NCBI GenBank assembly: GCA_012839295.1
Contig: DUNO01000055.1
Span: 1 to 64,000, forward strand
Source: Clostridiales bacterium
GTDB lineage: Bacteria > Bacillota > Clostridia > Lachnospirales > Lachnospiraceae
Direction: 5' to 3'
Length of the DNA stretch: 64,000 bases
Shown: positions 7,039 to 33,685 of the stretch, one piece after another
Layout of the letters: each line of letters starts with the position of its first letter
Numbering within the stretch: the first letter of the stretch is position 1
The notes under the pieces: generated by a model
The model's database searches: none
What the model saw: the letters and a program-made list of their open reading frames with translations, nothing else
What the model was told of the DNA's origin: nothing
Program-made: the position numbers and the translations under genes

Positions 7039-7075
7039 GCGTGCCTAAAAGGAAAGGTACGATAGCGTTAAGTTC

Positions 7076-7096
7076 TTAAGGGCTTTATGCCCTTAA
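7076..7096 (+). promoter_or_regulatory. Intercistronic hairpin
   Basis: TTAAGGGC (7076-7083) pairs perfectly with GCCCTTAA (7089-7096), followed by an A-rich run rather than a U-tract. Lying between permease and binding-protein genes, it more likely protects mRNA ends or tunes expression than terminates transcription. Confidence 0.5.
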
Positions 7097-7118
7097 AATA
7101 AAAAAATGGAGGATTATT

Positions 7119-8858
7119 ATGAAAAGAAAAAGGTCAAGGATTTTAGCTCTGCTCTTAACGGCGGTACTGGCCATGAGTATGCTGGCCGGCTGTAAGTCAA
7201 ATTCCGGAAAAACGGAAGGCGTGGGTACAACCGACGTGGCCACAACCAATGAGGGTACATCTGATAATGGCACGACTGCCGTACCGGAGCAAACGAATAT
7301 CCAGCAGGATATTGACTGGGAACGTATCGGTTGGCATGCGGATCCGGCCGATCTCGAATGGAAGGAAGATACCTCGCCGATTAAGTTATCCTACTATGTA
7401 AACTTTTCATGGTTTGGGTTGAACTGGGATGATGATACCGCACGAAGGGTGACTGAAAAGACAGGTGTTGATTTGGAATTGACCAAGCCGGTTTCGGATG
7501 ACGGACAGAAATTGAACATGATGATTGCAGGAAACCAGTTGCCGGATATTATGACAATCGACCGTAATGACCCTGCCCTGCAAAAAATGATTGATGCCGG
7601 ACTGATTTGGGCACTGGACGATTTGATTGATCAGTACGCGCCTAAAATGCGGGACGTCCTACAAAAGGAAATTCTGCAGAACTATCGTTCTGCAGATGGT
7701 AAAACCTACCGGTTCACTACCTGGGTACAGGGCGAAGCATGGCAAAAGGCTGCGAGAGAGTTTGACCAGATCGTTGGTACAAACCAGCCGGTAGTATCTG
7801 TGCGAAAGGATTACTATGAAGAAATCGGTTCTCCGGAAATAAAAACGAAGGAAGATTTGATTGCCGCACTTGAGAAAATGCACGCCAACCACCCCGATAA
7901 GATAGCTTTTTATCCGGCTGACAATGCAGTCTCCGCCGCCACATTAGAGCGAAGTGCCGCGATGGGTAATTTAGGTGTGCAGTTTGGTATGAGTAACGAT
8001 ATGGCGGATCAAGGAGGGAAAATTCTCTGGCAGGCACGCAGTGCAGAGTTTCAGAATACAATTGCATTTTTGCATGAGCTGCAGACCAAAGGCTTGCTAA
8101 ACCAGGATCCGTTTATTGACTCGAAAGATGTAAATAACGCTAAGATCACGAGAGGGGATGTAATATCGTATACTTGGGTTATTTCGGATGGTGAAAAGGT
8201 TCCGGAAGACAATCCCGATACACAGTATATCGTTGTAGGACCCTTGGACACCTACAAGCAAAGCCGTACAGGTGCCGGTTGGCTTGCTACTGTCATCAGT
8301 AAAAACTGTACCGACCCTGCACGTGCAATCCGTTTCCTGGAATATATGTGCTCAGTGGAAGGGCATCAGGATGTATCCTGGGGGATCCAGGGAGAGGACT
8401 ATAGCGGCGATGTTGTCAAAGGGCCTCAATGGAATCTTGTTGACGGAAAGCCTACCATGCTTCCGGCGTATGTGGTAGATAAGAATGCGGACTGGAGCGG
8501 TGTAGCAGCAAAGAACGGTCTTGGTGAGTACTGGATTGCCTGCAATGAATTGCTATGGAACCTGCCTTGGTGGGATAACAGCAATGAAAAAATGGCTGCC
8601 TACAATGAAGTCTATGGACCAAAGGTGGAATTTGTTCCGGAACTCGACTTCAAAGCACCGGATCCGGCCAGTGATGAGGGTATTATCCTGCAGAAAGCAC
8701 ATGAATTACTTCAGCTTTATGTGGTAAGCATGGTTTTCTCAGATGACTGGAAAGCAGAATATGATAAGTTTATTGCCGAGGTGGATGCACTTGGTATGGG
8801 AAAAGTAGAAGCTTTTTATGATACACAATATCAGGAGAAGCTGCAAAGCATGAAATAA
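7119..8858 (+). CDS. Extracellular solute-binding lipoprotein (LplA/YtcQ-like)
   Basis: A 579-residue family-1 solute-binding protein, exported and lipid-anchored. A positively charged N-terminus and hydrophobic core lead to the lipobox LAGC with Cys25, followed by a Thr/Gly/Asn-rich linker. At nearly 580 residues it belongs to the large LplA-type binding proteins that accompany YesM/YesN systems. GGAGG lies just before the ATG. It would capture an oligosaccharide and hand it to the two permeases upstream. Hairpins flank the gene on both sides (7076-7096 and 8866-8903), consistent with separate expression control of the abundant binding protein. Confidence 0.94.
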   Translation: MKRKRSRILALLLTAVLAMSMLAGCKSNSGKTEGVGTTDVATTNEGTSDNGTTAVPEQTNIQQDIDWERIGWHADPADLEWKEDTSPIKLSYYVNFSWFGLNWDDDTARRVTEKTGVDLELTKPVSDDGQKLNMMIAGNQLPDIMTIDRNDPALQKMIDAGLIWALDDLIDQYAPKMRDVLQKEILQNYRSADGKTYRFTTWVQGEAWQKAAREFDQIVGTNQPVVSVRKDYYEEIGSPEIKTKEDLIAALEKMHANHPDKIAFYPADNAVSAATLERSAAMGNLGVQFGMSNDMADQGGKILWQARSAEFQNTIAFLHELQTKGLLNQDPFIDSKDVNNAKITRGDVISYTWVISDGEKVPEDNPDTQYIVVGPLDTYKQSRTGAGWLATVISKNCTDPARAIRFLEYMCSVEGHQDVSWGIQGEDYSGDVVKGPQWNLVDGKPTMLPAYVVDKNADWSGVAAKNGLGEYWIACNELLWNLPWWDNSNEKMAAYNEVYGPKVEFVPELDFKAPDPASDEGIILQKAHELLQLYVVSMVFSDDWKAEYDKFIAEVDALGMGKVEAFYDTQYQEKLQSMK

Positions 8859-8929: not shown

Positions 8930-10813
8930 ATGGAGCAAAAGAACAGGAGCTTAAAAGAATTGCCTTTTGTGATGGAGGGCGGTCATTTGCAGGAGAGAAG
9001 CGCGGCAGAGTATTTATTAATAAACGGTCAGCAGGCAGCAGTTCTTGACTTTGGTTTATCCCGCGTGGCAGGCATACTACAAAATGAAACAGGATTATAC
9101 AATCTATGCCTCTCCCTGGAAACCTCAAAAATTTGCTGCAATGGGAACTTGTGGATTCTGCCGCAAAACAATTATTTAGATAAAACAGTGTGCATCAGCG
9201 GAGAAGGGGAAAAAAGTGCACAGGCGGTACAGACAGGGGTAGAGATAGTCCTTGCATCCGGATGCTATACACTCACAGTTTATATTGGCTGGCCCTCTTG
9301 TGATATTTTTGGAAAGCGATTATCCCTGCAAATGAAAGATGGTGAAAAATTAGAACAGACCTATGCCCGTTTTTATTGGGATACCCTGCTTCCTTCCGTG
9401 ATTGAACAAACCGATGCTTTGGTTTTTCCAATCAGTGAAGGGTATGTGCTGAGTACGCTGGAGCCCGGTAAGTATGCGGGTACCTATCCCGACGTGGATC
9501 ATGAATTTCAATGTAAAGGCCGGATCGCTCTGCGTGGCGGCTGTGAGCTGGCAGTTGTGGAGAGAATGATGAATCTGCAGTTTCGGATGATGAGAGAGGA
9601 TCCGGCCGGGCTGTGGCGCAATCCATGTGCTGTACAGCCGAAAGGGGAACGGGAATATCATGTGCGCAGAGACAGCATGGACCGCTCTGCTAACGCTGAG
9701 ATGTTTCTGGTCACAGGGAATGTGGAAATCCTGGAGACTGCATGGCTGTATTATGCTGCTACAAAAGACAGTACCTGGCTGCATACGCACATAAAAGATC
9801 TGGAGGGAGCGGCTTCTTTGCTGGAGCATTTGACTGACCATAACGGAAAGCTATGGTCGGACGTGTTTTATGAGGATCAGGTAATAAAAGACGGTATGGA
9901 ATGCATGTCGGCCGCCCTGGCTGCCCATGCACTTGAACTGCTGGCAGAGCTGGAACAGCATTTGGGACGCAGCGAAGCGGAAACCAGATTTCGGGGTCTG
10001 GCTAATAAAATTGCACGCAGCCTAATTAAGCCGTTGCCTCATGGTTTTTGGAATGAGGAACATCTCCGGTTTGCAGATTGGATTGACCGGAACGGGAAGG
10101 TGCATGACCACATTCACCTGCTGGCCAATTGCCTTCCGGTATTGTTTGGATATGCTGCTGAGGAGCAAGCTCAAGCCGTGAAAGCTCTCATTGAGGAAAA
10201 TTTTGAAGAATTTCAACGTTTCCCCACCTTTTTATCCCCTTGCATCGCCGATTATACTCCGGATGAAATAGGCTGTGCCGGACCTTACGATTTATGTGCG
10301 GCCGGACGGTACTGGTGCTGGGATGCCGCTTACTGGGCATTTCTTGGCAGAGGAGATGTGCTGGGGCATCAGCTGATGCAGGTGGCAGCGCAGGCAAAGA
10401 CAGACGGATACCATATGGGTGAGCGCTATGATATGAACCATGTTTATTATAAGGATCATAAAAATTGGCATGGTGCGGCTTATTATTATGAGTATCCCTG
10501 CGTGTTCCTTTGGGTGTTGCTGCAGGAGTTCCTGGGGCTGCGGCAGGGAATCGATGTGGATGTTGAATTACGTCCGGCACTTGACCGCTTTGGAACTGTT
10601 ATTGCGGAAAACTACGGTATTGAGTATGAATACGGGGCGAATGAATTTGCGGTAAAAAATACTGCGTCCCGCAGCCAGACACTTCGCCTGCAGCTGCAAG
10701 CACTGTATCCAGGCAAAAAATTGTATTTAAAAGATGTAGAGCTTTCTGGGGAAAGCATTTTTCAGCTGGATGCAGGGGCAAGTCTGAACGTATCGGTAGA
10801 TACTGATTGTTAA
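8930..10813 (+). CDS. Alpha/alpha-barrel glycoside hydrolase (MGH1/trehalase-like)
   Basis: A 627-residue cytoplasmic protein with no signal peptide. The N-terminal 200 residues look like a beta-sandwich. The rest resembles six-hairpin glycosidases of the MGH1/GH37/GH63 type, with motifs such as DSMDRSANAEMFL, HDHIHLLANCLPVLFGY and the aromatic RYWCWDAAYWAFLGRGD. Catalytic acids cannot be assigned safely by eye. It is the last gene of the transport operon, 71 bases after the binding protein with GGAGGG before the ATG. It probably splits the imported oligosaccharide inside the cell. The exact CAZy family and the sugar are unknown. Confidence 0.75.
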   Translation: MEQKNRSLKELPFVMEGGHLQERSAAEYLLINGQQAAVLDFGLSRVAGILQNETGLYNLCLSLETSKICCNGNLWILPQNNYLDKTVCISGEGEKSAQAVQTGVEIVLASGCYTLTVYIGWPSCDIFGKRLSLQMKDGEKLEQTYARFYWDTLLPSVIEQTDALVFPISEGYVLSTLEPGKYAGTYPDVDHEFQCKGRIALRGGCELAVVERMMNLQFRMMREDPAGLWRNPCAVQPKGEREYHVRRDSMDRSANAEMFLVTGNVEILETAWLYYAATKDSTWLHTHIKDLEGAASLLEHLTDHNGKLWSDVFYEDQVIKDGMECMSAALAAHALELLAELEQHLGRSEAETRFRGLANKIARSLIKPLPHGFWNEEHLRFADWIDRNGKVHDHIHLLANCLPVLFGYAAEEQAQAVKALIEENFEEFQRFPTFLSPCIADYTPDEIGCAGPYDLCAAGRYWCWDAAYWAFLGRGDVLGHQLMQVAAQAKTDGYHMGERYDMNHVYYKDHKNWHGAAYYYEYPCVFLWVLLQEFLGLRQGIDVDVELRPALDRFGTVIAENYGIEYEYGANEFAVKNTASRSQTLRLQLQALYPGKKLYLKDVELSGESIFQLDAGASLNVSVDTDC

Positions 10814-11021
10814 CATAATAAGAGTTATCGTTGAAAAGTGGGGACACAGTAACCCTGATGATGTAAGAAAAAAATCCTTAAACGAGTATCTCTATCTGAA
10901 CTTTATGAAAGGGCAAAGGTGAAGGCCAGGCTCCACTGCCGCTACAGTGGTAAATTTATTGCTTGATTTTACTCCACATCTGTTAGATACTATTATCAAT
11001 CAGAATGATGGGAGGCTCACT

Positions 11022-11206
11022 ATGGAAAAGCAACAGGTAGAGGAACTCAGACAAAAATATATTCAAAATCCTCGGAAAGTATGACTGCAAAGTTCGTCAA
11101 AAATATGAGCGATTCAGACCTGCTTGATATGCATTACTTTCTAACGGAGGATGATGACCTTGATGGCGGTGAATTCGAAGAAGGCTTTTATATCGACCTT
11201 TTCTAA
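11022..11206 (+). pseudogene. Small hypothetical gene, frameshifted
   Basis: A good start (GGGAGG then ATG at 11022) opens a 20-codon frame, MEKQQVEELRQKYIQNP..., that stops at 11082-11084. A second frame beginning at the overlapping ATG at 11081 continues as MTAKFVKNMSDSDLLDMHYF... for 41 codons. The two halves read naturally as one acidic protein of about 60 residues split by small deletions near 11071-11080. The ATGA overlap could instead mean two coupled mini-genes, which is less likely. Function unknown. Confidence 0.5.
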
Positions 11207-11385
11207 TCACGGTCCACTTTTCATGCCGCTTCAAGCGGACGACCGAACGTGTGAAGTACACAGGCAAAGCCGGGAACAAAGTTTTTGGATTTATTCATTT
11301 TGTGGAACATGGTAAGGATAACACTGCGGACCGCCTGGAAAAGGCAGTTGAGGAGATTGCGGTCTTTGAGAAAAAAGGGACGTAA
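11173..11385 (+). pseudogene. C-terminal fragment of an unidentified gene
   Basis: An open stretch without a start codon. From about 11218 it encodes a protein-like tail with basic and acidic blocks (FKRTTERVKYTGKAGN..., later LEKAVEEIAVFEKKGT) and ends at a TAA. The composition looks like real coding sequence that lost its 5' part. The family was not recognised. The stretch 11386-11645 after it holds no gene that can be supported, only a 19-codon ATG frame at 11538-11597 without a ribosome site. Confidence 0.4.
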
Positions 11386-11645
11386 TTCCTCATCAACCGT
11401 AAAGACACAGTGACGGTGTGTGCAGCGAACAAGCTTAAATGACATTTTAGTGATGTTTTCCATAACAACAGCCCTTGGATGAAGTGAATATTGAATTATT
11501 TTGTAATTATCATTGAAAATTTTCTGTAGTATATTCATATGACTATTATGACGGAAAATGAAGAAAAAGAAAGCCCCTCTTATTCCTCTCATGAGTGAGG
11601 GGGTAGGGGAGTTGAAGTGTCGTTTGGAACAGGAGCAGTTATTAT

Positions 11646-11795
11646 ATGAATGACATATGGGACAATAAAATTCAGAGAAGATGGAAAAAGAAATTATATG
11701 CTGATACTAAGGGGGTACTGGCATCAACCGTCATTTTTTTATCTCCTCTAGGAAAGTGGCTCCATAAAATTAATTTTAATAGAAAATCAGATTAA
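11646..11795 (+). CDS. Short hypothetical ORF, probable remnant
   Basis: A 49-codon frame, MNDIWDNKIQRRWKKKLYAD..., highly basic. Its middle (11709-11748) matches a 41-base segment at 26887-26927 with about 83 percent identity, and both can be read as K-G-(V/I)-L-x-S-T-V-I-F. This suggests both derive from one gene family or element. No family recognised; possibly not translated. Confidence 0.3.
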   Translation: MNDIWDNKIQRRWKKKLYADTKGVLASTVIFLSPLGKWLHKINFNRKSD

Positions 11796-11818
11796 ATTAT
11801 GAAAGAAGGAAAAATATA

Positions 11819-11974
11819 GTGAATTTAAAAAATTCAATGGTCTATCATTACTGTGATCTTAATGCTTTTTTAGGTATTCTAAAAACCAGGGCACTATGGA
11901 TGTCTGATGTGAAAAAAAGTAATGATTCCACGGGATTTTCGGGTGATTATCTGGATTATGAAATGATTCTATGA
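11819..11974 (+). pseudogene. DUF2971-family protein, N-terminal fragment
   Basis: A GTG start after AGAAGGA opens a 51-codon frame with the N-terminal signature of DUF2971 proteins: YHYCDLNAFLGILKTRALWMSDVKKSND. Full-length members are roughly 250-350 residues, so at least four fifths is missing. The frame stops at a TGA within sequence that no longer resembles the family. DUF2971 genes are frequent in accessory and defence islands. Confidence 0.6.
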
Positions 11975-12036
11975 CGAGAACCAAATAGGAATTTGGAGTT
12001 TAGGTTAATTTATAAAGCACGAAGGGAGATTCAATT

Positions 12037-12369
12037 ATGCAATATGGCTCCAAGCCTGACGCCATTTACCCAAACGAAAATATTAAAAGCGTTTGCTGCA
12101 TCAAAAATATCATTACCCGCCCAAATATCTTCGTCGGAGATTACACTTACTACGATGACCCAAACGGGCCGGAGAAGTTTGAAGAACACGTTACACATCA
12201 TTATGAGTTTATTGGTGATAAACTGGTTATAGGAAAGTTTTGTGCAATAGCAAAGGGTATTGAGTTTGTAATGAATGGTGCAAATCACAGGATTCACAGT
12301 GTTACGACCTATCCCTTTAACATTATGGGAAATGGTTGGGAGAAAGCGACTCCAACGCTGGCAGCGTAA
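12037..12369 (+). pseudogene. Vat/CatB-like O-acetyltransferase, truncated
   Basis: A 110-residue N-terminal half of a hexapeptide-repeat O-acetyltransferase of the streptogramin/chloramphenicol (Vat/CatB) group. Recognisable parts are the GDYTYYDDPNGPEKFEEHV block, IGKFCAIAKGIEFVMNGANHR with the conserved Asn-His region, and the following FNIMGNGWEKATPTL. Intact members are about 205-220 residues. Here the frame meets a stop right after PTL, and no left-handed beta-helix C-terminal half follows. It is therefore almost certainly inactive. A ribosome site (AAGGGAG) precedes the ATG. Confidence 0.75.
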
Positions 12370-12478
12370 TGTGTCGTTCTGATTATTCATAAAATACGAA
12401 GGTAAACAGGAATTTGAAATGCTGTGAGGTGTAGTCAGTGAAAGGGCTGTTCAAATATTTTACGTCGAGGATGCTATC

Positions 12479-13012
12479 ATGAAAATTGAAATTGTAACAT
12501 ACAATCCGGATTGGGCAAAGAAATTTGAAGCAGAGAAAACAAATCTGCTCCATCTTTTTGGTTCCCATGCCAAAGCCGTCGAACATATCGGAAGCACGGC
12601 GATACCGGGTCAGCGGGCGAAACCGGTCATTGATATCTTTGTTGGCGTTTCGCCTTTTGAGGAACTGTCTTTTTATCAGCATGTTTTTAACCCAAGGGAG
12701 TATCGCCACACCCCCACGGATATGACAGGCAGGTATCTGTTTGCAAAATACAAAAACGGCACTTGGACGCACAACATCCACATTTTACCGTACCATGATG
12801 GGTTTTATCTGCGCAATGAATTCCTTTTGCGGGATTATTTGAAGGAGCATCCTAAATTATCTGATGAATACGGAGCAGTAAAAGAGAGGGCAGCTATGGA
12901 AAACGGCAGTACCATAGAGGCATATACCCGCGCAAAGACAGAATTTATTTAAAAGGTGATTGATGCGGCAAGGGCGGAAAAAGGCTTGCCCCTACAAAAG
13001 GTTTGGGAATAA
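12479..13012 (+). pseudogene. GrpB/UPF0157 family protein with an in-frame stop
   Basis: A GrpB-family (UPF0157, nucleotidyltransferase-fold) protein of unknown substrate. Family motifs seen are YNPDWAKKFEAEK, VEHIGSTAIPG and KPVIDI, and GTWTHNIHILPY. A TAA at 12950-12952 ends the frame at residue 157. The same frame then continues for 19 sense codons, KVIDAARAEKGLPLQKVWE, to the TAA at 13010-13012, exactly the tail expected for this family. A single CAA to TAA change explains this. The shortened protein could still fold, so loss of function is likely but not certain. Confidence 0.75.
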
Positions 13013-13081
13013 TTCAAAATGGATGAAGCGCACTGGATGCTCTAAATACGGCGTATCGACTTTTATGGAGGGCTATCAAAT

Positions 13082-13388
13082 ATGAAAATCCAGGTGATTG
13101 GAGCCGCAGGGGTCGGAAAAAGCACCCTTTGCAAATATATCAGCGAAAAAGTCGGTATTTATTGGATCGGGAGATCATGAGCAAGACACCCGTGAATTTT
13201 TAGATTGGTGCAAGACCTATCTCACAGAGGATGAGAATGCTATCTGTTCCCTTGCTTGCCACCGGCGTTTTTTAAGGGAAGCAAAATGCAAAACACTGGA
13301 GTTGAACGCAGATCAATCGGTCGATGCATTATGCCGGCTTGTTTTAAAGGAGTGCCAAGACCCCGCAGTTAAACCCGAACGCCCATAA
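13082..13388 (+). pseudogene. P-loop nucleotide kinase-like protein, frameshifted
   Basis: The ATG at 13082 opens MKIQVIGAAGVGKSTLCKYI, a Walker A loop typical of small adenylate-kinase/topology-modulation-type P-loop proteins, but the frame stops at 13178-13180. A second frame, coding from about 13170 to 13388, continues as GDHEQDTREFLDWCKTYLTEDENAICS... and looks like the C-terminal part of the same protein. The central part with the Walker B region is missing, so this is an internally deleted, frameshifted gene. Confidence 0.6.
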
Positions 13389-13517
13389 AATCACCGGCGT
13401 CGTCTGCGTGGAGGAAATCAAAGCACCGATGATGCGGGAGCCGCTGGCTGGACGCTGGACAAGCTGGTGGACGAATTGGCCAAAGGTAAGCCTGTGGAGA
13501 AGATTCTGAGGAACTGA
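13357..13517 (+). pseudogene. C-terminal fragment of an unidentified gene, frameshifted
   Basis: Overlaps the end of the previous fragment in another frame. It reads KTPQLNPNAHKITGVVCVEE, continues to about 13451, then one shift later resumes LDKLVDELAKGKPVEKILRN and stops at 13515-13517. The two halves look like one protein tail. No family was recognised. Confidence 0.4.
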
Positions 13518-13608
13518 ATTTTAATTATTTCATCAATAAAAGTAAGGCACCTTTCATTGCTAATCCAGCCGATAGGCTGGATTATAAAAATTTTAAGGAG
13601 ATCTATGC

Positions 13609-13644
13609 ATGAAGAAAAATAATGCTAAGGAGATTGTGCGCTAA
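13609..13644 (+). CDS. Possible leader peptide
   Basis: An 11-codon frame, MKKNNAKEIVR, with an ideal ribosome site (AAGGAG, spacing 8). The stop is two bases before a strong hairpin (13647-13680). This arrangement is typical of attenuation leaders, but no intact gene follows, only remnants. It may be a relic of an inducible resistance or element gene. Confidence 0.35.
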   Translation: MKKNNAKEIVR

Positions 13645-13646
13645 CC

Positions 13647-13680
13647 GGGAGGTTGCGTAGAATCGAAAACGCGACCTCCC
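13647..13680 (+). promoter_or_regulatory. Strong hairpin after the leader ORF
   Basis: GGGAGGTTGCGT (13647-13658) pairs with ACGCGACCTCCC (13669-13680) over 12 pairs including one G-U, with a 10-base loop. No U-tract follows, so it could be an attenuator stem or a ribosome-site-masking stem rather than a terminator. The left arm contains GGGAGG, itself a ribosome-site-like sequence. Confidence 0.45.
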
Positions 13681-13857
13681 AATAGAATCCTTATATTCTT
13701 GAGCTCCGATCGTGTGGCAGCGGATGATAATCCAATGAAACCCATGTCTATCGCTATGCAGCCGCTTACTTCACCACTGTTTCCAATAAAACGCATGGAA
13801 GAGATGACAAGGCTAATGGGTGGAGATGGCTTCGCAGAATAATATCCAAACAGAAGG

Positions 13858-13895
13858 ACCTCCTGATCTATCCTTACTCGGATGGGTCAGGAGGT
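13858..13895 (+). terminator. Terminator-like hairpin
   Basis: ACCTCCTGA (13858-13866) pairs perfectly with TCAGGAGGT (13887-13895), with further weak pairing inside, followed by TGTTTTGTG. It lies at the right side of the decayed island. Confidence 0.55.
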
Positions 13896-13913
13896 TGTTT
13901 TGTGTACTTTTTT

Positions 13914-14051
13914 TCATCTACATCCACCGTCACGCCGGACCTTGAATTCCACGGTGAATTTGTCCCCATAGACGGTAACTTTCTCAATCAGTCGGCGGAC
14001 GGGGGATTCGTCGTATTCCGTGACGGTGGCGGGCTGTTCTTCGCATAATAA
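13914..14051 (-). pseudogene. Serine site-specific recombinase, C-terminal remnant
   Basis: Read on the minus strand this gives EYDESPVRRLIEKVTVYGDK followed by FTVEFK, the hallmark C-terminal stretch of large serine recombinases of Tn4451/CTn-type elements. After EFK an extra base shifts the frame; the alternative frame restores SGVTVDVD. Upstream (14046-14051 on the plus strand) the similarity ends. Only about 45 of the usual 500 or more residues remain, so the gene is dead. It marks the island as remains of an integrated element. Confidence 0.65.
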
Positions 14052-14184
14052 TTTATTATGTTATATATTCCGGTTTTTCATTGTATCAATGTAGAAATTT
14101 TGTTACAATTTATTTGCTATTTAAACTTAAATAAATTAAGTTGAGTAGTACTTAACAATTTTATTAAAATGATAGGGTGAAAAT

Positions 14185-15930
14185 ATGAGATTTGATACGA
14201 AACATATTGCGAATGCATTCGCATTTAGAAATTACTCAATTAAAAAGAAGATGATTATAGCATTGATTCTTTGTGTTTTGCTACCATTTTTTGTTATAAC
14301 ATTTATTATGTCAAACATTTTGACGGCGATAGAAATGAAAGAAAATAGAAAAGAGGAAACTTATATTATTGAAGATATTTCAATGGAACTGGAAAATATA
14401 GCGAAAAGAGCGGATGAATTTGCAGAATCCAATCTGGGGAGTGGGGCTGTTAAAGATATCCTAAGGGATCGGGGCAGTATGAATGATTATCTTATTTTAT
14501 ATGACAATTTTAAAAATTTTGTTGCTCATGAAGACATAAAAGAGACAATATATCTTGTGAAAAATGGTACGATAGTTTTTCAGATCGGTGATTATTACCT
14601 TTATCCGGATGTAAACTTAAGTGTAGAAAATACATACCCGGGAAAAGGGAGTTGGTCGGGAGTGGATAAGATAAAGGTTTTTGGTAAGGGCTTTTCAAAA
14701 TCATTGGAATTCTTGTCACGTTCGTATCCGGTCTATGATTATTCAAACAATAGTTATATTGGACAGATTGTGGTGAGCTACAGTATGGAGGAGATTTGCT
14801 CAAGATCCATTGATAAATTTGCTTCAGAGGATAGGGTTAATGTCTTATATCATCCCTCAGGCAGAGTACTTGCATATAGTAATAGGAATGGCATGGAAGA
14901 AGAGAGTGATTTGTTGGACAAAATCCCACCTTCTCAATCGTTGGGATATGTAAATATCCAGTCAGATAAACAAAAAGGTACGCTGTATTATTCCAGATTA
15001 AATAGTGGTTTTACTATTGTAAGAATGATTAAAAGGCAGTGGCAGCCTGAGATTTTGATAAATTTGGTACTGACGGTTTTTGTATGTGTTTTGTTTGGAT
15101 TTGCGTGTATATTTATTTTGAATAAATATATAATTGAACCATTGAATGCGTTGTCTGATAAAATGAAACATGTAAAGCTGGGAGAATCAAAAGAGATAAA
15201 GATAAGGGTAAATCAAGACGAGATAGGAAGTATAGTCAGTGAATACGATAAGATGATGAAAACCATCAACTCTCTTATAGAACAAGTTTATATTGAAAAA
15301 ATAAACAAACAAGAAGCTGAAAAAAATGCACTTATCTCTCAGCTAAAGCCACATTTTTTGTATAATACTTTGGATAGTATAAAATGGTTGGCAATAAAGA
15401 TAAAAGCCCATGAAGTCGCAGCGCAGTTAGAAGCTCTTTCGGAAATATATAGAAATGTCCTGAATTTTGGACGGGAGATGATTGCTGTCGAAGAGGAGAA
15501 AAAGTTTTTGGAAAATTATTTTTACCTTATGAAAGAACGGGCTTCCGTTCCCATGGAGCTTATAATAGATATAGATAAGGAGCTGAAGTTTGCTTATTTA
15601 CCCAAATTAATCATACAGCCTTTGGTTGAAAATTCAATAAATCATGGACTTATCAACCAAGATAATGGCGGAACAATATATGTGGGCATCAGAAAGAAAG
15701 TTATTAATTTTGAAGAACTGATTGAGATTCGTGTTTTTGACAATGGAGTGGGAACGAATGCTTATGAATTGATGAAAACAATTAAAGATGAAAATCCAAA
15801 ATCTGCATTTGCGCTCAGAAATATTGATAGGCGTATACGTCTGAAATATGGTGAAAAAAGTAAGCTGTTAATATTCAGCAAAAAGAGTAGGGGGACACTT
15901 GTCTTAGTGAGATTAAAATATACTGGATGA
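14185..15930 (+). CDS. Sensor histidine kinase (YesM-like)
   Basis: A 581-residue membrane sensor for locus B. A hydrophobic segment near 25-48 is followed by an extracellular domain of about 240 residues, a second helix near 288-312, a HAMP region, and a His_kinase domain with H390 in SQLKPHFLYNTLDSIKW. The HATPase shows IIQPLVENSINHG and DNGVG. It is 49 bases upstream of its regulator. AT-rich codon usage is stronger here than in locus A, as for the whole of locus B. The start has GATAGGGTG upstream, a modest ribosome site. Confidence 0.93.
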   Translation: MRFDTKHIANAFAFRNYSIKKKMIIALILCVLLPFFVITFIMSNILTAIEMKENRKEETYIIEDISMELENIAKRADEFAESNLGSGAVKDILRDRGSMNDYLILYDNFKNFVAHEDIKETIYLVKNGTIVFQIGDYYLYPDVNLSVENTYPGKGSWSGVDKIKVFGKGFSKSLEFLSRSYPVYDYSNNSYIGQIVVSYSMEEICSRSIDKFASEDRVNVLYHPSGRVLAYSNRNGMEEESDLLDKIPPSQSLGYVNIQSDKQKGTLYYSRLNSGFTIVRMIKRQWQPEILINLVLTVFVCVLFGFACIFILNKYIIEPLNALSDKMKHVKLGESKEIKIRVNQDEIGSIVSEYDKMMKTINSLIEQVYIEKINKQEAEKNALISQLKPHFLYNTLDSIKWLAIKIKAHEVAAQLEALSEIYRNVLNFGREMIAVEEEKKFLENYFYLMKERASVPMELIIDIDKELKFAYLPKLIIQPLVENSINHGLINQDNGGTIYVGIRKKVINFEELIEIRVFDNGVGTNAYELMKTIKDENPKSAFALRNIDRRIRLKYGEKSKLLIFSKKSRGTLVLVRLKYTG

Positions 15931-15979
15931 TGTGTAGCAAAAAGTATAAATATCATACACAAGAATAGGAGTTGGCCGT

Positions 15980-17488
15980 ATGAAGCTGATGATAGTAGAC
16001 GATGATAGACAGATTAGAGAGGGAATAAGAGATGGTATAAATTGGAGAAGCCTGGGGGTAGATGAGGTGTTTGACTATCCGAATGGCAAAGAAGCGTATC
16101 ATTATTATCAAAATATTAAGCCGGATATCATATTGGCTGATATAAAAATGCCGCAGATGGATGGGATTGAACTTTTAAAGGCGATTAGAAAATTGGACAA
16201 AAGTGTTTGTTATGTAATCTTAAGTGCTTATTCGGAATTCTCATATGCGCAGGAGGCACTTAAACTGGGGGCAAATGGATATGAGCTAAAGCCTTTAAAA
16301 ATGCAGAATCTGGTTAGTCTGATGAAAAACCTCATTCATGATATGCAGAATAAAGCCATCAATCTAAAGTATCGGGAAGATATACAAAATAGAAGATTTC
16401 TTGACTGGATAAGAGGAGAGTCTTCTTTTGAGACTGATTCTAACTTTATGGTACAGAATTTTTTTAAAAGTATAAATATGATACCTTCTAATTATTTGAT
16501 TCTTGCAATTATTGAAAAAATTGATGATACAGGGTCGGATGATTTGTTTTGGGAAATCCTTTCTGATTATAATGTACATTTCATTAAGATAGATAAGCGC
16601 AAAGCATTAGGATTTCTATATACAGATTCTTCATATCTGCGCATGTTTGAAAACAAAGTGGTTCTTATGAAGGAGCTAAAGAGTATGCTGACTCGAATGA
16701 ATAAACATGAAATCAATAGTAATATCGGTGTTTCGGATATATTCACTTACAATAATTTGCAGGCTGGATATAAGGAGGCAAGAATGGCAATTGACTGTTC
16801 CTTTTATACAGGAAGGAACAGTATTAATTTTTTTGAAGTAATAAACACACAAAAAATAATGAGTACCGGACAAACAGTAAAAGAAGCACTTGAACAGCTT
16901 ATAAGCGATACAAGAGCTTGTGATGATATGAAAGTGAAGGAAGATATTACAGTACTGTTTGATATAATAGAGAGCAAAAAAATAAGTAAAGATGTTTTGA
17001 TAATGTTGCTGCAAAAATTTACAATTGAATTTGAAAATTATGTTGGAGAAGATCATATCGCAGAATTAATAGAGCCTGTATATTATTTAGATGAATATAA
17101 GGATAAATTAATTGGTTTTACTGAAAAAATAATATCCAATATAAAATTTAATTCCAGTAAAGAGGAGTATTCCTTATCTGTGAGAATGATGATGGATTAT
17201 CTTAAGAATACTGATATAACTGAAGTTAGTTTAGTAGATGCTGCTGAAAAAATCGGAAAGTCACCCAGCTATTTAAGCTTTCGATTTAAGGATGAGGTAG
17301 GAATGACATTCGTGGATTATATTACTGAGTATAGAATAGATGCAGCAGACAAATTGCTGATAGGGACAAGTTTGCCGGTAAGTGAGATTATGAAAAAGGT
17401 AGGCTATCATGACTATGTTTATTTTTCAAAATTATATAAGAAAAAAAGGGGTCGATCTGCAAGTGAAGTAAGAAAAAATAAAAAATAG
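15980..17488 (+). CDS. AraC-family response regulator (YesN-like)
   Basis: A 502-residue regulator. The receiver domain (1-120) has D7/D8, phospho-acceptor D54 in LADIKMPQMDG, and the KP pair. The C-terminal AraC domain (about 400-500) contains VDAAEKIGKSPSYLSFRFKD and the second helix GYHDYVYFSKLYKKKRGRSA. It is cotranscribed with the kinase and followed 88 bases later by the binding-protein gene it probably controls. Confidence 0.93.
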   Translation: MKLMIVDDDRQIREGIRDGINWRSLGVDEVFDYPNGKEAYHYYQNIKPDIILADIKMPQMDGIELLKAIRKLDKSVCYVILSAYSEFSYAQEALKLGANGYELKPLKMQNLVSLMKNLIHDMQNKAINLKYREDIQNRRFLDWIRGESSFETDSNFMVQNFFKSINMIPSNYLILAIIEKIDDTGSDDLFWEILSDYNVHFIKIDKRKALGFLYTDSSYLRMFENKVVLMKELKSMLTRMNKHEINSNIGVSDIFTYNNLQAGYKEARMAIDCSFYTGRNSINFFEVINTQKIMSTGQTVKEALEQLISDTRACDDMKVKEDITVLFDIIESKKISKDVLIMLLQKFTIEFENYVGEDHIAELIEPVYYLDEYKDKLIGFTEKIISNIKFNSSKEEYSLSVRMMMDYLKNTDITEVSLVDAAEKIGKSPSYLSFRFKDEVGMTFVDYITEYRIDAADKLLIGTSLPVSEIMKKVGYHDYVYFSKLYKKKRGRSASEVRKNKK

Positions 17489-26382: not shown

Positions 26383-26616
26383 CTGTTGAAATATGTGAAA
26401 ATTCTTTGTATTTAAATATATCCTGGTATATAATGTAAATGAAGCTTGCTTTTATTTTGAAAGATTGAAGAGTTACAAAGTTGAAATATTGAGTTGGATG
26501 CAGATACAATTCAGTATATGCTACAGAATAATGTGAAATTGGAACATGAGATTATAAGTTTAGAACTGATGCAGTAATCTGAGTTTGGTTTTATATCGTA
26601 AACCATATAAATAATT

Positions 26617-26847
26617 GTGCAAGACATAACTGAAAATTGTGTATCATTACTGGTACATAGGATAAAAAAGGACAATCATACTGCTATGGTCGAAGTTGTG
26701 AATATTAAATATTTCTTTGAAGAGAATGTTCCGTTGCCTGTGAATAAGACGAAACGCATTATTCAAAAATGCATGGATGAAGAACTGGATTTGCCACAGC
26801 AGGTATTGATGGAGGATAATGCGAATGAATCAAAAGAAATTGAGTAA
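26617..26847 (+). CDS. Hypothetical small ORF, probable remnant
   Basis: A GTG-started, 76-codon acidic frame without a good ribosome site, ending EDNANESKEIE. The composition looks coding, but no family was recognised. The region before it (26383-26616) contains a 28-codon open piece near 26491-26577 (ELDADTIQYMLQNNVKLEHE) that may be another part of the same broken gene. No other gene can be supported in 26383-27080 apart from the short frame at 26825. Confidence 0.35.
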   Translation: MQDITENCVSLLVHRIKKDNHTAMVEVVNIKYFFEENVPLPVNKTKRIIQKCMDEELDLPQQVLMEDNANESKEIE

Positions 26848-26932: not shown

Positions 26933-27080
26933 GAGACGGTTGTGTTACTGGAGCGAGAAGGGCAGTAAATCAACGGTTGATAGGAGTAAGATATTATTTC
27001 CTGTTATCATGGCTGGGCAAGGAACATAAACGTTTTGGAAATACTGAATTTTGCATAATGGATGACCAGGGGGTAAAATT

Positions 27081-28700
27081 ATGTTCAATATAAAGACTTA
27101 TGATTATTCCGAAAAGGATTTTGATAATTGGAATTTAGACTGTGATTACCATTGTATCTATATATTAGAAAATGGGAAAGATGCCTATGTGGGGGAAACC
27201 AATAACCCAACTCGTAGGGGTCATGAACATGATAGTGATAGACTAAAGAATAAAAATAAGAAGTATGGTTTTACTAAAATGCATATCATTTCAGGGCAGT
27301 TATCAGAAGAAACGCCTGCAAAACATTATGAAAATTTACTGATAAAATTGATGAAAGTAGATGGAAAGTATAATGTTGTAAATCGGAATGAAGGAGAAAG
27401 ACCACATTATTATCGAAAAAATGAATTTGAATTGTATTTTGATAAACTTTGGATACAGCTTGAGAAAAAAGGCCTTGTAAATACAAAATCCTTTGAAATG
27501 ATAATAAACTCGAATCTTTACAAATATTCACCGTATTCTGTATTAACAGAAAGACAACATTATGCGCTGACCAGTATCGTTCATACTATAGAATCTGGTG
27601 AAACACAGCCTCATAGAGATGATTTTAAATCACGACCAATTTTAGTAAGTGGAGATGCTGGAACAGGAAAAACAGTAGTGGCCACAGCATTATTTTATTA
27701 TTTAAGAAACAGTACTATGCACAAAGACAAAAAGATTGCGTTGGTGTATGCAAATCCGTCCACTCGCAGTGATATACAAGATGTTTTTGAGAGCATTTCC
27801 GGATTAAGTAAAAATGATATTATCAGTCCTGTAGGTTTGGCAAAACAACATTATGATATCATTATTTGTGACGAGGCTCATCGATTAAGGCAAGGAAAAA
27901 ATCTTGGTATGTATTTTACTCATTTTAAACGTGTTAATGAGCAGTTAGGATTCGACAACACGCATGATGAATTGGATTGGATTCTCGAAAAGTCGGATTG
28001 TCAAATCCTGTTTTATGATGAAAAACAAATTACAAGTCCACTAGATATTCCCCAATCATCTTTTAATAAGCGCTTATATGAAAGAAAAAGAGGAATACGT
28101 CCAATATTGCTTGAAGAACAGATGCGAATAAGAGCAGGTGGCGAATATGTGCCATACATCTATGATATATTGTATCAAAGAACAACGACTATAAAATTAT
28201 TTGAAGGTTACGATTTTAGGCTTTTTGATTCATTTGCAGATATGGCAAATTTGATAGAGGAAAAGGAAAATTGTTATGGATTATCCAGACTTTGTACTGG
28301 GTATGCATGGAAATGGAAAGGCAAGAAAGATAAGACATTAATTGATATTAATATTGATGGAGTAAATATTAAATGGAATAGTCAAACAGGTGGCTGGTTA
28401 AGCAACCCTGCAACAAAGAAAGAAATGGGTAGCATTTATACATTGCCTGGACTTGATTTAAACTATGCAGGAATAGTTATTGGGCCAGACCTCTTTTTTG
28501 ATCCAATTGATAACAAAATAAAAATAGATAAGGATAATTTTTTTGATAAAAAAGTCAAGGATGGGGTGACAGACGATGAATTAAGAAATTATATTTTGAA
28601 TACATATGCAGTATTCTTTACCCGTGGAATCAGAGGGACTTATGTTTATGTTTGTGACAAAAATTTAACAGAATATCTTAAAAGATATATTCCAATGTAA
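27081..28700 (+). CDS. GIY-YIG nuclease fused to DUF2075 helicase/ATPase
   Basis: A 539-residue soluble protein. Residues 24-95 form a GIY-YIG nuclease domain: CIYIL (25-29), YVGETNN (36-42), Arg45/Arg46 and the likely catalytic Glu84 in HYENLLIKL. From about 150 it is a DUF2075 superfamily-1-type ATPase, with Walker A GDAGTGKT (191-198), Walker B IIICDEAHR (Asp264/Glu265), and C-terminal motifs TLPGLDLNYAGIVIG and NTYAVFFTRGIRGTYVYVCD typical of the second RecA lobe. Such fusions probably use ATP-driven movement on nucleic acid to place a cut; a role against phage or plasmid is inferred from domain type and from the surrounding island, not shown. GGGGGTAAA is a weak ribosome site. It is the only intact gene between 26.2 and 29.6 kb. 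Confidence 0.85.
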   Translation: MFNIKTYDYSEKDFDNWNLDCDYHCIYILENGKDAYVGETNNPTRRGHEHDSDRLKNKNKKYGFTKMHIISGQLSEETPAKHYENLLIKLMKVDGKYNVVNRNEGERPHYYRKNEFELYFDKLWIQLEKKGLVNTKSFEMIINSNLYKYSPYSVLTERQHYALTSIVHTIESGETQPHRDDFKSRPILVSGDAGTGKTVVATALFYYLRNSTMHKDKKIALVYANPSTRSDIQDVFESISGLSKNDIISPVGLAKQHYDIIICDEAHRLRQGKNLGMYFTHFKRVNEQLGFDNTHDELDWILEKSDCQILFYDEKQITSPLDIPQSSFNKRLYERKRGIRPILLEEQMRIRAGGEYVPYIYDILYQRTTTIKLFEGYDFRLFDSFADMANLIEEKENCYGLSRLCTGYAWKWKGKKDKTLIDINIDGVNIKWNSQTGGWLSNPATKKEMGSIYTLPGLDLNYAGIVIGPDLFFDPIDNKIKIDKDNFFDKKVKDGVTDDELRNYILNTYAVFFTRGIRGTYVYVCDKNLTEYLKRYIPM

Positions 28701-28726: not shown

Positions 28727-28879
28727 ATTGATGCCAAGGGGGTACCAGATGCCGTGGCAATCAGAATTACAGTAACAACACATACACCTGAAGGAGTAAT
28801 TGGTTCAACTATTTTTATAGAAAATTTAGATGTAGAAAATTTAATAGCAAAATATTGGTATAAAGTAAATGGAGGATAA
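28727..28879 (+). pseudogene. C-terminal fragment of an unidentified gene
   Basis: A 50-codon open stretch after a stop, without a usable start, reading VPDAVAIRITVTTHTPEGVI and ending VNGG. It has the regular pattern of a beta-rich coding tail. The family is not recognised. It follows the helicase gene by 26 bases. A 35-codon GTG frame at 28888 follows but cannot be supported. Confidence 0.35.
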
Positions 28880-29147
28880 GAGATAAAGTGTATATTCATG
28901 TAATGTTACGAACAAAGGGGAAGAATCTAAATAAAAAAATTAAAATGAAAATTTCTGAGAAAGGTTTTGGACAAGTCCTCCCTCTAAGGCGATAGTAGGC
29001 TTTGGCGTCATCTTTATTGTCTTTTCAAGGCATATAGAAGTGGTTGCCAAGATTTGCTGAAAATGAGCATCTAAAGGATCAAAATGAATTATTTTGTTGC
29101 ACCGGTTTTTGAGATGTGTTAATGTTTTAGTAAAGCACGATATAAAT

Positions 29148-29186
29148 ACCACCAGGAGGCAAGAGGCTTTTGGTGGTGTTTTTTTA
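29148..29186 (+). terminator. Rho-independent terminator
   Basis: ACCACCA (29148-29154) pairs with TGGTGGT (29171-29177), with extra GCC/GGC-type pairing inside, followed by GTTTTTTT. It may end transcription from the helicase gene or a lost gene. Confidence 0.7.
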
Positions 29187-29214: not shown

Positions 29215-29353
29215 ATGTCTGCAAAAGAAATATTTGGAGCGTATACCTGATAATTTTTTTGGTTCGGCTATTACCGTTCGTATAGAGATGGTAGAGAGTA
29301 CAAAGTTGAATGCAAAGCAGTTTGAATTAATTAAAAAATATTTGGAGAAATAG
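29215..29353 (+). pseudogene. Small hypothetical gene, frameshifted
   Basis: An ATG at 29215 opens MSAKEI and soon stops. One frame over, from 29231, the sequence continues YLERIPDNFFGSAITVRIEM to the TAG at 29351-29353, ending LIKKYLEK. The halves look like one 45-residue protein broken by a one-base shift. The following 300 bases to the next gene hold no supported feature. Confidence 0.35.
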
Positions 29354-29655
29354 ATAGAAAGACGTGCTTTTTATGAAGTATGGACAGAGTTATTGAATGA
29401 TTATTAAAAGAATTATGATAAGTATAATATTCCATATAGTATATTATATACAAGGAAACTATTAATTTATGGGTCAAAGGATTTAATATTGGCAAAATAA
29501 CTGAAAAAGTATAAGAAATCTAGAGCCAGCCAAAAAAGTACTTACAAAATGATGCAGGAGCATATAAAAAACAAACACGAACAACAAACAATCAACAAAT
29601 ACGAACCACTGAGATTTACCAATAAAACATCATAGTACATAGGAGATAAAAAGAA

Positions 29656-30986: not shown

Positions 30987-32528
30987 ATGTCGGCTAAGTT
31001 TGTTCCATTCCTACCATTGGTAAAATTCAACAAATGTTACAAGCTATTCTGTTTTCTATGCATTATCTCATTATTATCTCCAAGTTCCCTTGCCTCCGTA
31101 AATGCGGCAACGAAATTTGTTGGAATCGATATCGAACAAAAAGTAGTAATCGCAAAAACAGGGGATAAAATCGGGCTAAACCCCTCAGGCTATTATTATG
31201 AGAAGTTATTTGGAGACGAAGCTACACAGTGCTTTGAAGACATCAGTAATGTCAAATGGACATCCAGTAATAAGAAGATTGCAACAATTAATTCAAAAGG
31301 AGTATTAACAGCAAAAGCGCCGGGCAAGTGCACTGTTACTGCGACCTGGAAGGATAAAAAAGCACAGTGCAAGGTGCGCATTTATACGGAAAAAGAATTA
31401 TACGATCATGTCTTATTTGCTGATATAGCCCATGAGAATATATTTATGGCGTTAACTTCGGATTATTTCAAGAACTATGATTTACTATATGATTCTGAGA
31501 CCTTTGAAGAAGTTGCTGATAAGAAAGTCCAAGCCGCAAAAAAAGCAAAAGAAATCATTAATAGCGTAGTCACTAAGGATATGTCAGACTACGAAAAAAC
31601 AATGGCGATCGCTGAGTGGATTATCAATAACATCCAAGTAATACATAATTATAAAAGCAAATTTACAAAAGGGAGCTTAAGAGAATATGAAAAAGCCTTT
31701 TATTACCTTGATCCTCTTCTATATGGGAAGTCAAATGAACGGGGGATAGGGACATTATTTGAACTCCTCTTAAATATCTGCGGCATAAGATCTGAACTTG
31801 TGATTAATGGCGGCACCTTTAACACGGATCAGGGGGAAGAGATTAATCTTATATTTAGCAATGTAGTCAAATTAGATGGAGAATACTATTATTTTGATAT
31901 TATGCAAATATCCGCCGACAAGCAGGAGCTCCAGGATGAAAATAAAAAAGCTTACTCCTTTTACGATTTTTTAATCCCTGATAACAACATGGTAAAGCAG
32001 TTTGTTCACATTACCACTTCCAAAGAAAAAGAGGATTGGATTAAATATGGTTCCAACCCAAGAGTTACGAATTATGATTTCAACGGCACCTATTATGTAC
32101 CCCTTGGCTTTACTCCTAAAAAAGCCTCGAAATACAGTTATTATTTTTATGATTTTTATAATGAAGCCATACGCTTTGTAACGATGAAAGAAGATCAGAC
32201 CAATAAAAATATCGGATACAAGCCAAGTATCCCGGTATTACCGTTTTATCCTGATTCTACCGCTGCCAAATATAAAAATATCTTGAGTCAGGAGGCAGCC
32301 TTCAACAGTAAAGTAGTACAAGCTGCAAATGCTGCTGATGCACTTTATCAGGCAAAACTAAAGGGTGAACCAATTAATTATGCGGAAGTTTCTGAATTGG
32401 TTTCCGGTGTCACCGCTGTTGAAACAGAATTTGCCTCAATCCAAAGTTCGTTTGCAAATAGAAATCTAATTAGCTTCATAAAGAATAAAATTGCTGATAC
32501 GAAAACCTTATTAACGAAATTACAATAA
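30987..32528 (+). CDS. Secreted Big_2-domain protein with degenerate transglutaminase fold
   Basis: A 513-residue exported protein. A signal peptide ends near residue 40 (ASVNA). A bacterial Ig-like Big_2 domain (about 45-130) contains VKWTSSNKKIATINSKGVLT and GKCTVTATW. The middle (about 180-320) aligns in pattern with transglutaminase-like domains, but the usual Cys and His positions read GIGTLFELL and EEINLIFSNV, so only the Asp-type FDIM remains. It is likely non-catalytic. A helical C-terminal region follows. A TTGAAA/TATTAT promoter at spacing 17 is visible about 60 bases upstream. The next gene, 32 bases on, encodes an apparently active relative. Confidence 0.75.
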   Translation: MSAKFVPFLPLVKFNKCYKLFCFLCIISLLSPSSLASVNAATKFVGIDIEQKVVIAKTGDKIGLNPSGYYYEKLFGDEATQCFEDISNVKWTSSNKKIATINSKGVLTAKAPGKCTVTATWKDKKAQCKVRIYTEKELYDHVLFADIAHENIFMALTSDYFKNYDLLYDSETFEEVADKKVQAAKKAKEIINSVVTKDMSDYEKTMAIAEWIINNIQVIHNYKSKFTKGSLREYEKAFYYLDPLLYGKSNERGIGTLFELLLNICGIRSELVINGGTFNTDQGEEINLIFSNVVKLDGEYYYFDIMQISADKQELQDENKKAYSFYDFLIPDNNMVKQFVHITTSKEKEDWIKYGSNPRVTNYDFNGTYYVPLGFTPKKASKYSYYFYDFYNEAIRFVTMKEDQTNKNIGYKPSIPVLPFYPDSTAAKYKNILSQEAAFNSKVVQAANAADALYQAKLKGEPINYAEVSELVSGVTAVETEFASIQSSFANRNLISFIKNKIADTKTLLTKLQ

Positions 32529-32560
32529 TAAATTATAAATAACGAACCGAGGTCAAGATC

Positions 32561-33685
32561 ATGAAAATCAAAAAAATAATCATATGCTTGCTTATTGTGA
32601 TATTTGGCATAGGAAATGTGCAAATTCCCAATGCAGAAGCTGCTTCTAAAATAAAAAGTACAAGCGTGACAGTAGATTCCTATGATAAATATTGGACTCA
32701 ATTCTATTCCCTAATCGGAAAGGGGTATAATGATATCACACTTACTATTAAGGGAGATGCTGCGCTAAAAATTAAGAACGAGCTGGATGGAGACATGGAC
32801 TATCCATTTACACCTGACAGCAGCTATGTAAAGAAATATATGGATAAATCAAATTGGAAGATACCCTATCTGGTTGATTTCTTCTCTTATAAGGTATTCT
32901 ATAAGTTTGATCCCAATGAACAGGATTATATAGAAGATGAAATCTACTATGAAGATGAGGTCAAATTTGATAATGGCTATTACTCCATTACTAATCTGGG
33001 TAAGGATATGTATACGGAATGGAACGGTCAATATTTTCTGGATTATAAATACGAATACATGTGGGATGTTGATTTCTACGGCGCAGAAGAAGAGAAGTAT
33101 ATGTGGAGCGAGGAAAAGCAGGAATTATGTGTTACACTTGAACTGGAGTATAAAGGTGAATTTGATAATTATACTTTTGATCACGACAATATGTTAAAAA
33201 CCTTTGACAAAGTAAAGAGTTTGATAAAGTCATGGAAAATGGATAGCATGACTGACTATCAGAGAATCAGTAAGCTTAATCAATATATCTGTGACCATGT
33301 AACTTATAGTTCATTTCCAGATCAAAACCCGGGCAGCGGAGCAAACGCATTACTATTTGGTGAGGCAGTATGCCAGGGATATGCTGAATTAATGGATATT
33401 TTCCTCAAAACCATGGGATATGAAACGGTACTTGTTACTGCATATGCTGAAGATTTTGATTTTACCAACGATGGACATGCTTGGAACATTATTAAAATTA
33501 ACAAGAAATGGTATGCGGTTGATACCACCTGGAATGATTCCTCAAAAGATCGTACAAAATATTTATTAGTATCACAAAAGGAAATGAAGGATCACAATGG
33601 ATGGGCATTAGGCAACTATAAAGATTATGTTCTCAGTAAAACGAGATTATCAAAGAACAGTAAATCAAAGTTAAAGTTAAAATAA
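32561..33685 (+). CDS. Secreted transglutaminase-like protein
   Basis: A 374-residue exported protein with a signal peptide ending near NAEAA (27-31). After an acidic, aromatic-rich N-terminal region, the transglutaminase-like domain (about 225-350) carries the full triad: Cys in EAVCQGYAELMD, His in DGHAWNIIKI and Asp in YAVDTTWND. Such domains act as cysteine proteases, peptidoglycan-related enzymes or protein cross-linkers. The target here is unknown. It lies 32 bases after the apparently inactive relative, so the two may be cotranscribed and act together at the cell surface. The ribosome site is weak (GAGG at some distance). Confidence 0.85.
   Translation: MKIKKIIICLLIVIFGIGNVQIPNAEAASKIKSTSVTVDSYDKYWTQFYSLIGKGYNDITLTIKGDAALKIKNELDGDMDYPFTPDSSYVKKYMDKSNWKIPYLVDFFSYKVFYKFDPNEQDYIEDEIYYEDEVKFDNGYYSITNLGKDMYTEWNGQYFLDYKYEYMWDVDFYGAEEEKYMWSEEKQELCVTLELEYKGEFDNYTFDHDNMLKTFDKVKSLIKSWKMDSMTDYQRISKLNQYICDHVTYSSFPDQNPGSGANALLFGEAVCQGYAELMDIFLKTMGYETVLVTAYAEDFDFTNDGHAWNIIKINKKWYAVDTTWNDSSKDRTKYLLVSQKEMKDHNGWALGNYKDYVLSKTRLSKNSKSKLKLK

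Follow-up and report, generated by a model that had tools for sequence, protein, structure and literature searches.

A GIY-YIG nuclease domain is listed for two tested defence proteins, PD-T4-3 and PD-lambda-1 (Vassallo et al. 2022, PMC9519451; table in PMC10952713). The gene reported here, located in a 64-kb stretch of DNA (64,000 nucleotides, the window), shares such a nuclease with them, as far as their descriptions allow a comparison, but those descriptions mention no SLFN-g3 helicase for either. The PADLOC models gave no full-length match to the window protein; seven families matched at E <= 1, all partially, and the best were Nhi and AbiO (mainly through the helicase part) and PDC-S14 (through the nuclease part). 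Nhi and AbiO are motor ATPase defence proteins like the one proposed here (E 2.2e-10 and 3.5e-10, within amino acids 117–396); however, the matches span 213 of 470 model positions for Nhi (136–348) and 238 of 468 for AbiO, in both cases without the GIY-YIG part, and the PDC-S14 match spans only positions 64–158 of 301, in the nuclease part, at 25 bits, so that neither Nhi nor PDC-S14 is matched at full length. NCBIfam holds no full-length model for the protein either. PDC-S41 and other SLFN-g3 (DUF2075) proteins have the helicase family PF09848 in common with it, and at one locus of a relative (L056; loci of relatives are given by L numbers) a PDC-S41 gene follows the GIY-YIG homologue with a MazG gene in between; that PDC-S41 protein, however, has no GIY-YIG match, and the match of the window protein to PDC-S41 is limited to amino acids 451–525, with an E value of only 0.0013. 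The helicase part also resembles human SLFN11 and SLFN14 (Foldseek ranks 2 and 5, E 9.5e-11 and 3.4e-10), but the TM value is only 0.37, and Pfam at E 0.1 finds in the window protein no Schlafen core (AlbA_2-type) domain, a GIY-YIG domain being present instead. The link to the Schlafen family is that of the motor alone, and the Schlafen-family RNases linked to defence are a different protein type.

MazG, the usual partner of the gene in its relatives, is named by DefensePredictor (2026, PMC13092281) among nucleotide-modifying domains predicted for defence, experimentally unvalidated as the source puts it; the likeness is to MazG in predicted defence systems, whereas the window gene itself is without MazG. 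A full-text literature search (most subscription papers and bioRxiv being outside its scope) found neither the GIY-YIG/SLFN-g3 fusion nor its association with MazG described, and gave no DUF2075 paper with GIY-YIG or "defense", no joint mention of Schlafen and GIY-YIG, and no paper joining nucleotide pyrophosphohydrolase, defense island and helicase. Papers in which GIY-YIG and MazG are mentioned together deal, by their titles and the start of their abstracts, with phages or phage satellites. Within the literature searched, the fusion and its MazG pairing seem to be undescribed, which is an indication rather than a proof.

Domain architecture and active-site residues

The gene is an open reading frame of 539 amino acids with an ATG start at exactly 27081–28700 on the plus strand of the window; a sequence that looks by eye like a ribosome-binding site, AGGGGG (27068–27073, plus strand), lies 7 bases 5' of the ATG. 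Pfam hmmscan places a GIY-YIG domain (PF01541) at amino acids 23–98 (27147–27374, plus strand; E 9.3e-7, 29.5 bits against a curated cut-off of 22.6) and an SLFN-g3_helicase domain (PF09848), which we take to be the family formerly named DUF2075, at amino acids 187–526 (27639–28658, plus strand; E 3.1e-58, 198 bits against a cut-off of 24). The latter covers model positions 4–354 of 354, i.e., the domain is matched in full length.

Two tyrosines, an arginine, a glutamate and an asparagine form the catalytic set of GIY-YIG nucleases, and the whole set is present in the window protein in an alignment of 45 sequences (the window protein and hand-chosen homologues from 44 of the 80 fetched loci, the split gene of L112 being left out). 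The GIY motif reads CIY (25–27), the YIG motif reads YVG (36–38), and the nuclease set is completed by R46, H50, E84 and, just beyond the Pfam domain, N101. Y36, G38, R46, H50, E84 and N101 are invariant in 45 of 45 sequences, and Y27 is kept in at least 90% of them. The same invariance holds for G191, G194, G196, K197 and T198 of the Walker A motif, read from the sequence as GDAGTGKT (amino acids 191–198; 27651–27674, plus strand), and for D264 and E265 of the Walker B or motif II, DEAH (amino acids 264–267; 27870–27881, plus strand). The original prediction of an intact GIY-YIG/DUF2075 fusion, with a nuclease signature of YVG, Arg45/46 and Glu84 and with both Walker motifs, is thus borne out by a single frame with both Pfam domains above cut-off and by the alignment, which places the arginine at R46, not R45.

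The AlphaFold model of the whole protein (pLDDT 86.6, pTM 0.81) has its best PDB fold matches by Foldseek in RecD (8b1t_D), SLFN11 (7zel_A), SLFN14 and Dna2, followed by nsp13 and Upf1, i.e., SF1 helicases. When the N-terminal 140 amino acids were modelled alone (pLDDT 84), UvrC GIY-YIG domains took the first four places, and six of the first seven, among the fold matches, the best being 1ycz with a probability of 0.84 and a TM to target of 0.65, though at an E value of 0.29. By sequence, the best PDB match of the window protein reached an E value of only 0.13.

A MazG-like partner and the clade that lacks it

At least 152 relatives were confirmed in named genomes, and the best 80 loci were fetched, so that the locus counts given here describe the closest relatives. 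A MazG-like frame (PF12643) lies within 150 bp of the homologue in 68 of these 80 loci, the distances being taken between stop-to-stop frames, not start codons; of the 68 frames, 40 lie upstream of the homologue, 28 lie downstream of it, and 66 share its strand. One of the remaining 12 loci has a MazG-like frame 1.1 kb off, and 11 have none. The PF12643 family is itself rare, with any match in only three of 14 well-known control genomes, and it is absent from all 20 control regions, which were drawn from the genomes of a 40-locus set. In that 40-locus set, which overlaps the 80-locus set in genomes and whose counts are not summed with it, clustering of the neighbouring ORFs shows a protein of 105–132 amino acids adjoining most homologues; the one scanned is MazG-like (PF12643, E 1.4e-24), and MazG is present in 35 of 40 loci, i.e., in 32 by clustering and in L051, L052 and L054 by six-frame HMM search. 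The gene is usually one half of a two-gene module with a MazG-like gene. Among the seven plasmid relatives viewed, MazG was seen in only two.

MazG is also found near DUF2075 proteins with a different N-terminus, in nine of 13 loci with open frames of at least 570 amino acids (counted by hand, within 1.5 kb of flank), so the pairing may follow the motor more than the GIY-YIG domain. These 13 non-GIY DUF2075 proteins, with a longer N-terminus, are those of L014–L019, L022–L025, L027, L029 and L031. This N-terminus looks PD-(D/E)XK-like by eye, and in the four such proteins scanned Pfam gives only weak matches below cut-off.

Neither the window gene nor any other locus of its clade has an adjacent MazG-like PF12643 gene. 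In a tree of 85 proteins, built with a quick method, the window gene is one of the eight members of a clade (SH-aLRT 100), all without MazG; the split L112 was left out of this tree, and L061 was entered as its C-terminal piece only, which makes its placement unsure according to a warning of the tool. L112, a ninth relative whose two pieces are 71–74% identical to the window protein, is also without MazG. Within the 80-locus set MazG occurs in none of the six clade loci versus 68 of the 74 others (Fisher p 3e-6, a value to be read as indicative because the compared sequences are related). A six-frame HMM search of the 64-kb window at E 10 gave nothing MazG-like, and the genome itself has no PF12643 match, so that by PF12643 no MazG is supplied in trans. 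MazG-less copies elsewhere in the tree are L036, L043, L062, L113, L121, L123, L162 and L179, some of them on contigs that end close to the gene, e.g., 692 bases after L113. The MazG-less label needs 8 changes on the tree versus 14.8 in shuffles, indicating that MazG absence arose more than once. The absence of MazG in the window clade, repeated elsewhere in the tree, is a firm result.

The intact members of the clade are 52–77% identical to one another, from which we take the MazG-less clade to be old, and eleven residues mark it in the 45-sequence alignment. A conserved partner of another kind was looked for and not found; the nine loci share, by eye, only signalling, ABC-type and short proteins.

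It is possible, though somewhat doubtful, that these genes make up a previously unreported immune module of two genes, present in Bacillota and Actinomycetota and also outside these phyla. In it a GIY-YIG/SLFN-g3 helicase would be joined by a MazG-like NTP pyrophosphohydrolase, and nucleotide hydrolysis would arm, gate or complement the nuclease-motor, with the window gene representing an old clade without MazG. Among the loci seen, most family members have MazG and one clade never has it, which offers a natural experiment on the contribution of MazG. If the module is real, a comparison of the two branches would reveal the role of MazG in prokaryotic immunity, and a GIY-YIG version would be added to a helicase family common to bacteria and the human antiviral Schlafens.

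Distribution, defence-gene neighbours and probable role

The gene is accessory in its lineage. Among the other 33 genomes of the genus, only one contains a relative, which is split and distant. Many of the 34 genus genomes are incomplete; two of the 14 good ones (the own genome included) match. With the own genome included in each count, 34 of 150 family genomes match at E 0.001, many through the helicase part alone, 24 of 393 order genomes have a near-full-length match at E <= 1.7e-156 (one of them, G691, with an internal stop), and three of 398 genomes of a phylum sample match at that level. The best 80 of the at least 152 loci come mostly from Bacillota and Actinomycetota, with MAGs labelled Patescibacteria, Falkowbacteria and Bacteroidota. 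Matches occur in 38 plasmid records, of which 10 cover 80% or more of the query, with identities under 60% throughout and about 30% for the best, and in four phage records, one of which (MT836409.1, 32% identity) has an adjoining MazG-like ORF. In this record (L105, positions 6466–8674), a contig from human faeces filed as phage, the MazG-like frame overlaps the GIY-YIG/DUF2075 homologue. No DNA match to the window gene was found in an E. coli collection, and neither a pattern scan of viral contigs nor a single-protein scan of a genome-contig collection gave a confirmed relative. Judged from these sequence comparisons, the gene is best explained as an accessory, horizontally moving one.

The most similar intact homologue, that of L107 (65% identity to the window protein), lies directly behind an HsdR gene (REase_I, 519 bits), with a gap of 2 or 29 bp depending on which start codon is taken; the HsdR gene is preceded by genes that look HsdM- and HsdS-like by eye. 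On the opposite strand, at a distance of about 6 kb, there is a phage-type integrase gene. At L043 the homologue is 15 bp behind an AIPR/MzaE gene, and at L062 it is 12 bp behind a cytosine methylase gene, which itself follows a gene for a 691-aa protein, taken to be the one MzaE match of PADLOC among 120 neighbours. L043 and L062 can be described as GIY-YIG/SLFN-g3 genes attached to Mza-like gene sets without MazG.

Counted over the 80 loci and 20 controls, an HNH-domain gene occurs in 19 versus none (p 0.011), a PLD-SF2-DUF3427 gene (PADLOC mREase_IV) in 18 versus one (p 0.11, not significant alone), and a NUDIX gene (PADLOC PDC-S07) in 17 versus one. One control, L206, which itself contains type IV restriction and NUDIX genes, was kept in all counts; it begins about 7 kb, and its restriction gene lies about 19 kb, from a second DUF2075 gene of the genome, so it is not a clean control. 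When 120 neighbours were compared with 120 control genes by PADLOC, 72 versus 40 families were matched at E <= 1e-20, a weak measure which is not a per-gene count. The HNH protein is conserved, about 370–400 amino acids long (e.g., L049, 11383–12543) and weakly matches the Cas9 HNH region. The L049 cassette (10731–16975) consists of MazG, a 104-aa protein, HNH, a DUF6508 protein, PLD-SF2-DUF3427 and NUDIX. The 104-aa protein has no Pfam match and looks HisE/MazG-like by eye, i.e., there are two or three nucleotide hydrolases within one restriction island.

Of the 10 plasmid records that cover 80% or more of the query, seven were viewed, and near the homologues there are a DUF3578 gene weakly matching mREase_IV (H5), type I methylase and specificity genes (H6), NUDIX, DEAD-helicase, MazG and PDC-M26A genes (H8), an mREase_II gene (H9), type III CRISPR genes (H12), adenine-methylase and HNH genes (H13), and E1-E2, JAB and nucleotidyltransferase genes (H14, where the match starts at amino acid 99 and the GIY-YIG part is unconfirmed). 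Within the window clade, a certain defence locus exists only at L107; PADLOC candidate families lie near L108 and L109, and no defence genes were recognised by eye beside L035, L110, L111 or the window gene. Across the family, the homologues do not sit mostly in conserved housekeeping contexts; in the window clade the picture is mixed, with no conserved neighbour recurring, by eye, beyond the signalling, ABC-type and short proteins named above and with L107 certainly in a restriction locus.

Read from these sequences, defence against mobile DNA appears to us the best reading of the gene, and on balance a probable one. A defence role was already part of the original prediction, and it gains from the patchiness and from the context of the relatives (type I restriction-modification, Mza, type IV restriction, type III CRISPR and E1-E2-type genes), but not from the gene's own neighbours, which by eye look metabolic. 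The prediction of a single-gene type of defence holds for the window clade, which is without MazG, but not for the family, in which MazG is within 150 bp at 68 of 80 loci. We infer DNA as the substrate and an action against phages or plasmids in the following order: the SF1 motor (SLFN-g3/DUF2075) would first engage invading DNA that is exposed or contains single-stranded DNA, and would then spend ATP on moving along this DNA or opening it; in this way the DNA would be passed to the N-terminal GIY-YIG domain for nicking or cutting. In the paired branch the MazG-like NTP pyrophosphohydrolase has as its probable target the (d)NTP pool or a nucleotide signal. It could serve as a further effector, starving replication, or it could gate the nuclease; the window clade would work without MazG, which, provided that the gene is functional, would not be needed there.

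Alternatively, the protein could be an accessory nuclease-helicase of DNA repair or replication restart serving the host, with a UvrC-like nuclease, a RecD/Dda-like motor and MazG as a house-cleaner of damaged nucleotides. The nuclease fold is indeed closest to UvrC and the motor closest to RecD, and the MazG superfamily is tied to nucleotide house-cleaning (Moroz et al., in 2005, reportedly made this link in the title of a paper); however, the patchy distribution, the relatives on plasmids, the restriction genes near homologues and the want of a conserved housekeeping neighbour in the window clade make a repair role unlikely. The matches to SLFN11 and SLFN14 structures and the membership of the helicase in the Schlafen group 3 family would fit an effector which, once the motor senses infection, cuts RNA (e.g., tRNA) and leads to abortive infection. 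By Pfam, however, there is no Schlafen RNase core, and GIY-YIG enzymes of known function are, to our knowledge, DNA nucleases, so we hold this explanation to be quite improbable.

The position of some copies relative to tRNA genes bears on a further alternative, i.e., a selfish mobility gene whose GIY-YIG domain is a homing-type nuclease that spreads it. Homing endonucleases often carry GIY-YIG domains, solo copies sit at unrelated sites, and four MazG-less copies (L108, L109, L110 and L113) each start about 75–260 bp past the end of a tRNA gene that shares their strand (ARAGORN), whereas at the 68 MazG-paired loci there is no tRNA gene within 350 bp upstream, the nearest being at L166, about 470 bp away (Fisher p 3e-4, post hoc). 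Against homing stand the tRNA-proximal copies themselves, which have no att-like or tRNA-derived repeat after the genes, and the fusion to a motor ATPase and the pairing with MazG, which it leaves unexplained; we regard it as very improbable. No tRNA gene is present at the window gene or at L035, L036, L043, L061 and L062, the MazG-less loci of the 40-locus set; the position beside tRNA genes is taken here as a pattern only. One further ARAGORN call, an odd tRNA, falls within the L159 homologue.

Setting of the gene in the window

We retain defence against mobile DNA as the preferred reading and turn to the patch in which the window gene lies. Everything around the gene had been described as decayed, and this stands for 26611–26844 (plus strand), the 3' remnant of an unrelated gene (the C-terminus, 62% identity over 47 amino acids, E 3.8e-14, to a relative whose protein is 376 amino acids long), but not for the other fragments, which have no recognisable origin. 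A short open fragment follows the gene at 28727–28876 (plus strand), with no relative at E 0.01 among 149 other genomes of the family; this fragment, the remnant, 29216–29350 and 29501–29632 have no Pfam match. A terminator-like stem-loop with a T run is located at 29144–29181 (plus strand), 444 bases past the gene end, by consensus match only (3 found versus 1.2 expected). Between 20 and 36 kb of the window Rfam gave no hit at the gathering threshold, and no convincing repeats were found near the gene.

Codon positions 1, 2 and 3 of the gene differ by 0.269, 0.186 and 0.531 from L107, and position 2 is the least and position 3 the most different against each of L107, L108, L111 and L035, which indicates purifying selection on the protein. 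This pattern along the compared lineages, together with the age of the MazG-less clade (52–77% identity) and the catalytic residues kept by its aligned members, makes it least probable of all that the gene is a relic, intact through recent acquisition only and with no present function in the host, in spite of its place among fragments, the split relatives L061, L074 and L112 and the missing MazG.

The flanks of the AT-rich stretch are, by eye, a GH43-like gene and a diaminopimelate-dehydrogenase-like gene, and the genes around the window gene resemble, also by eye, genes of sugar catabolism and amino acids. The closest relatives of the downstream flank gene are at most 77% identical, too distant to define an exact empty site. 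The GC content of the patch is 0.30–0.36, with 0.38–0.42 in the upstream genes and 0.42–0.44 in the gene just downstream; it drops again to 0.34–0.37 at about 31–34.5 kb, so that low GC is not peculiar to the patch. At 30987–33685 the window encodes two secreted proteins which, by eye from their translations, have a Big2/transglutaminase-type look.
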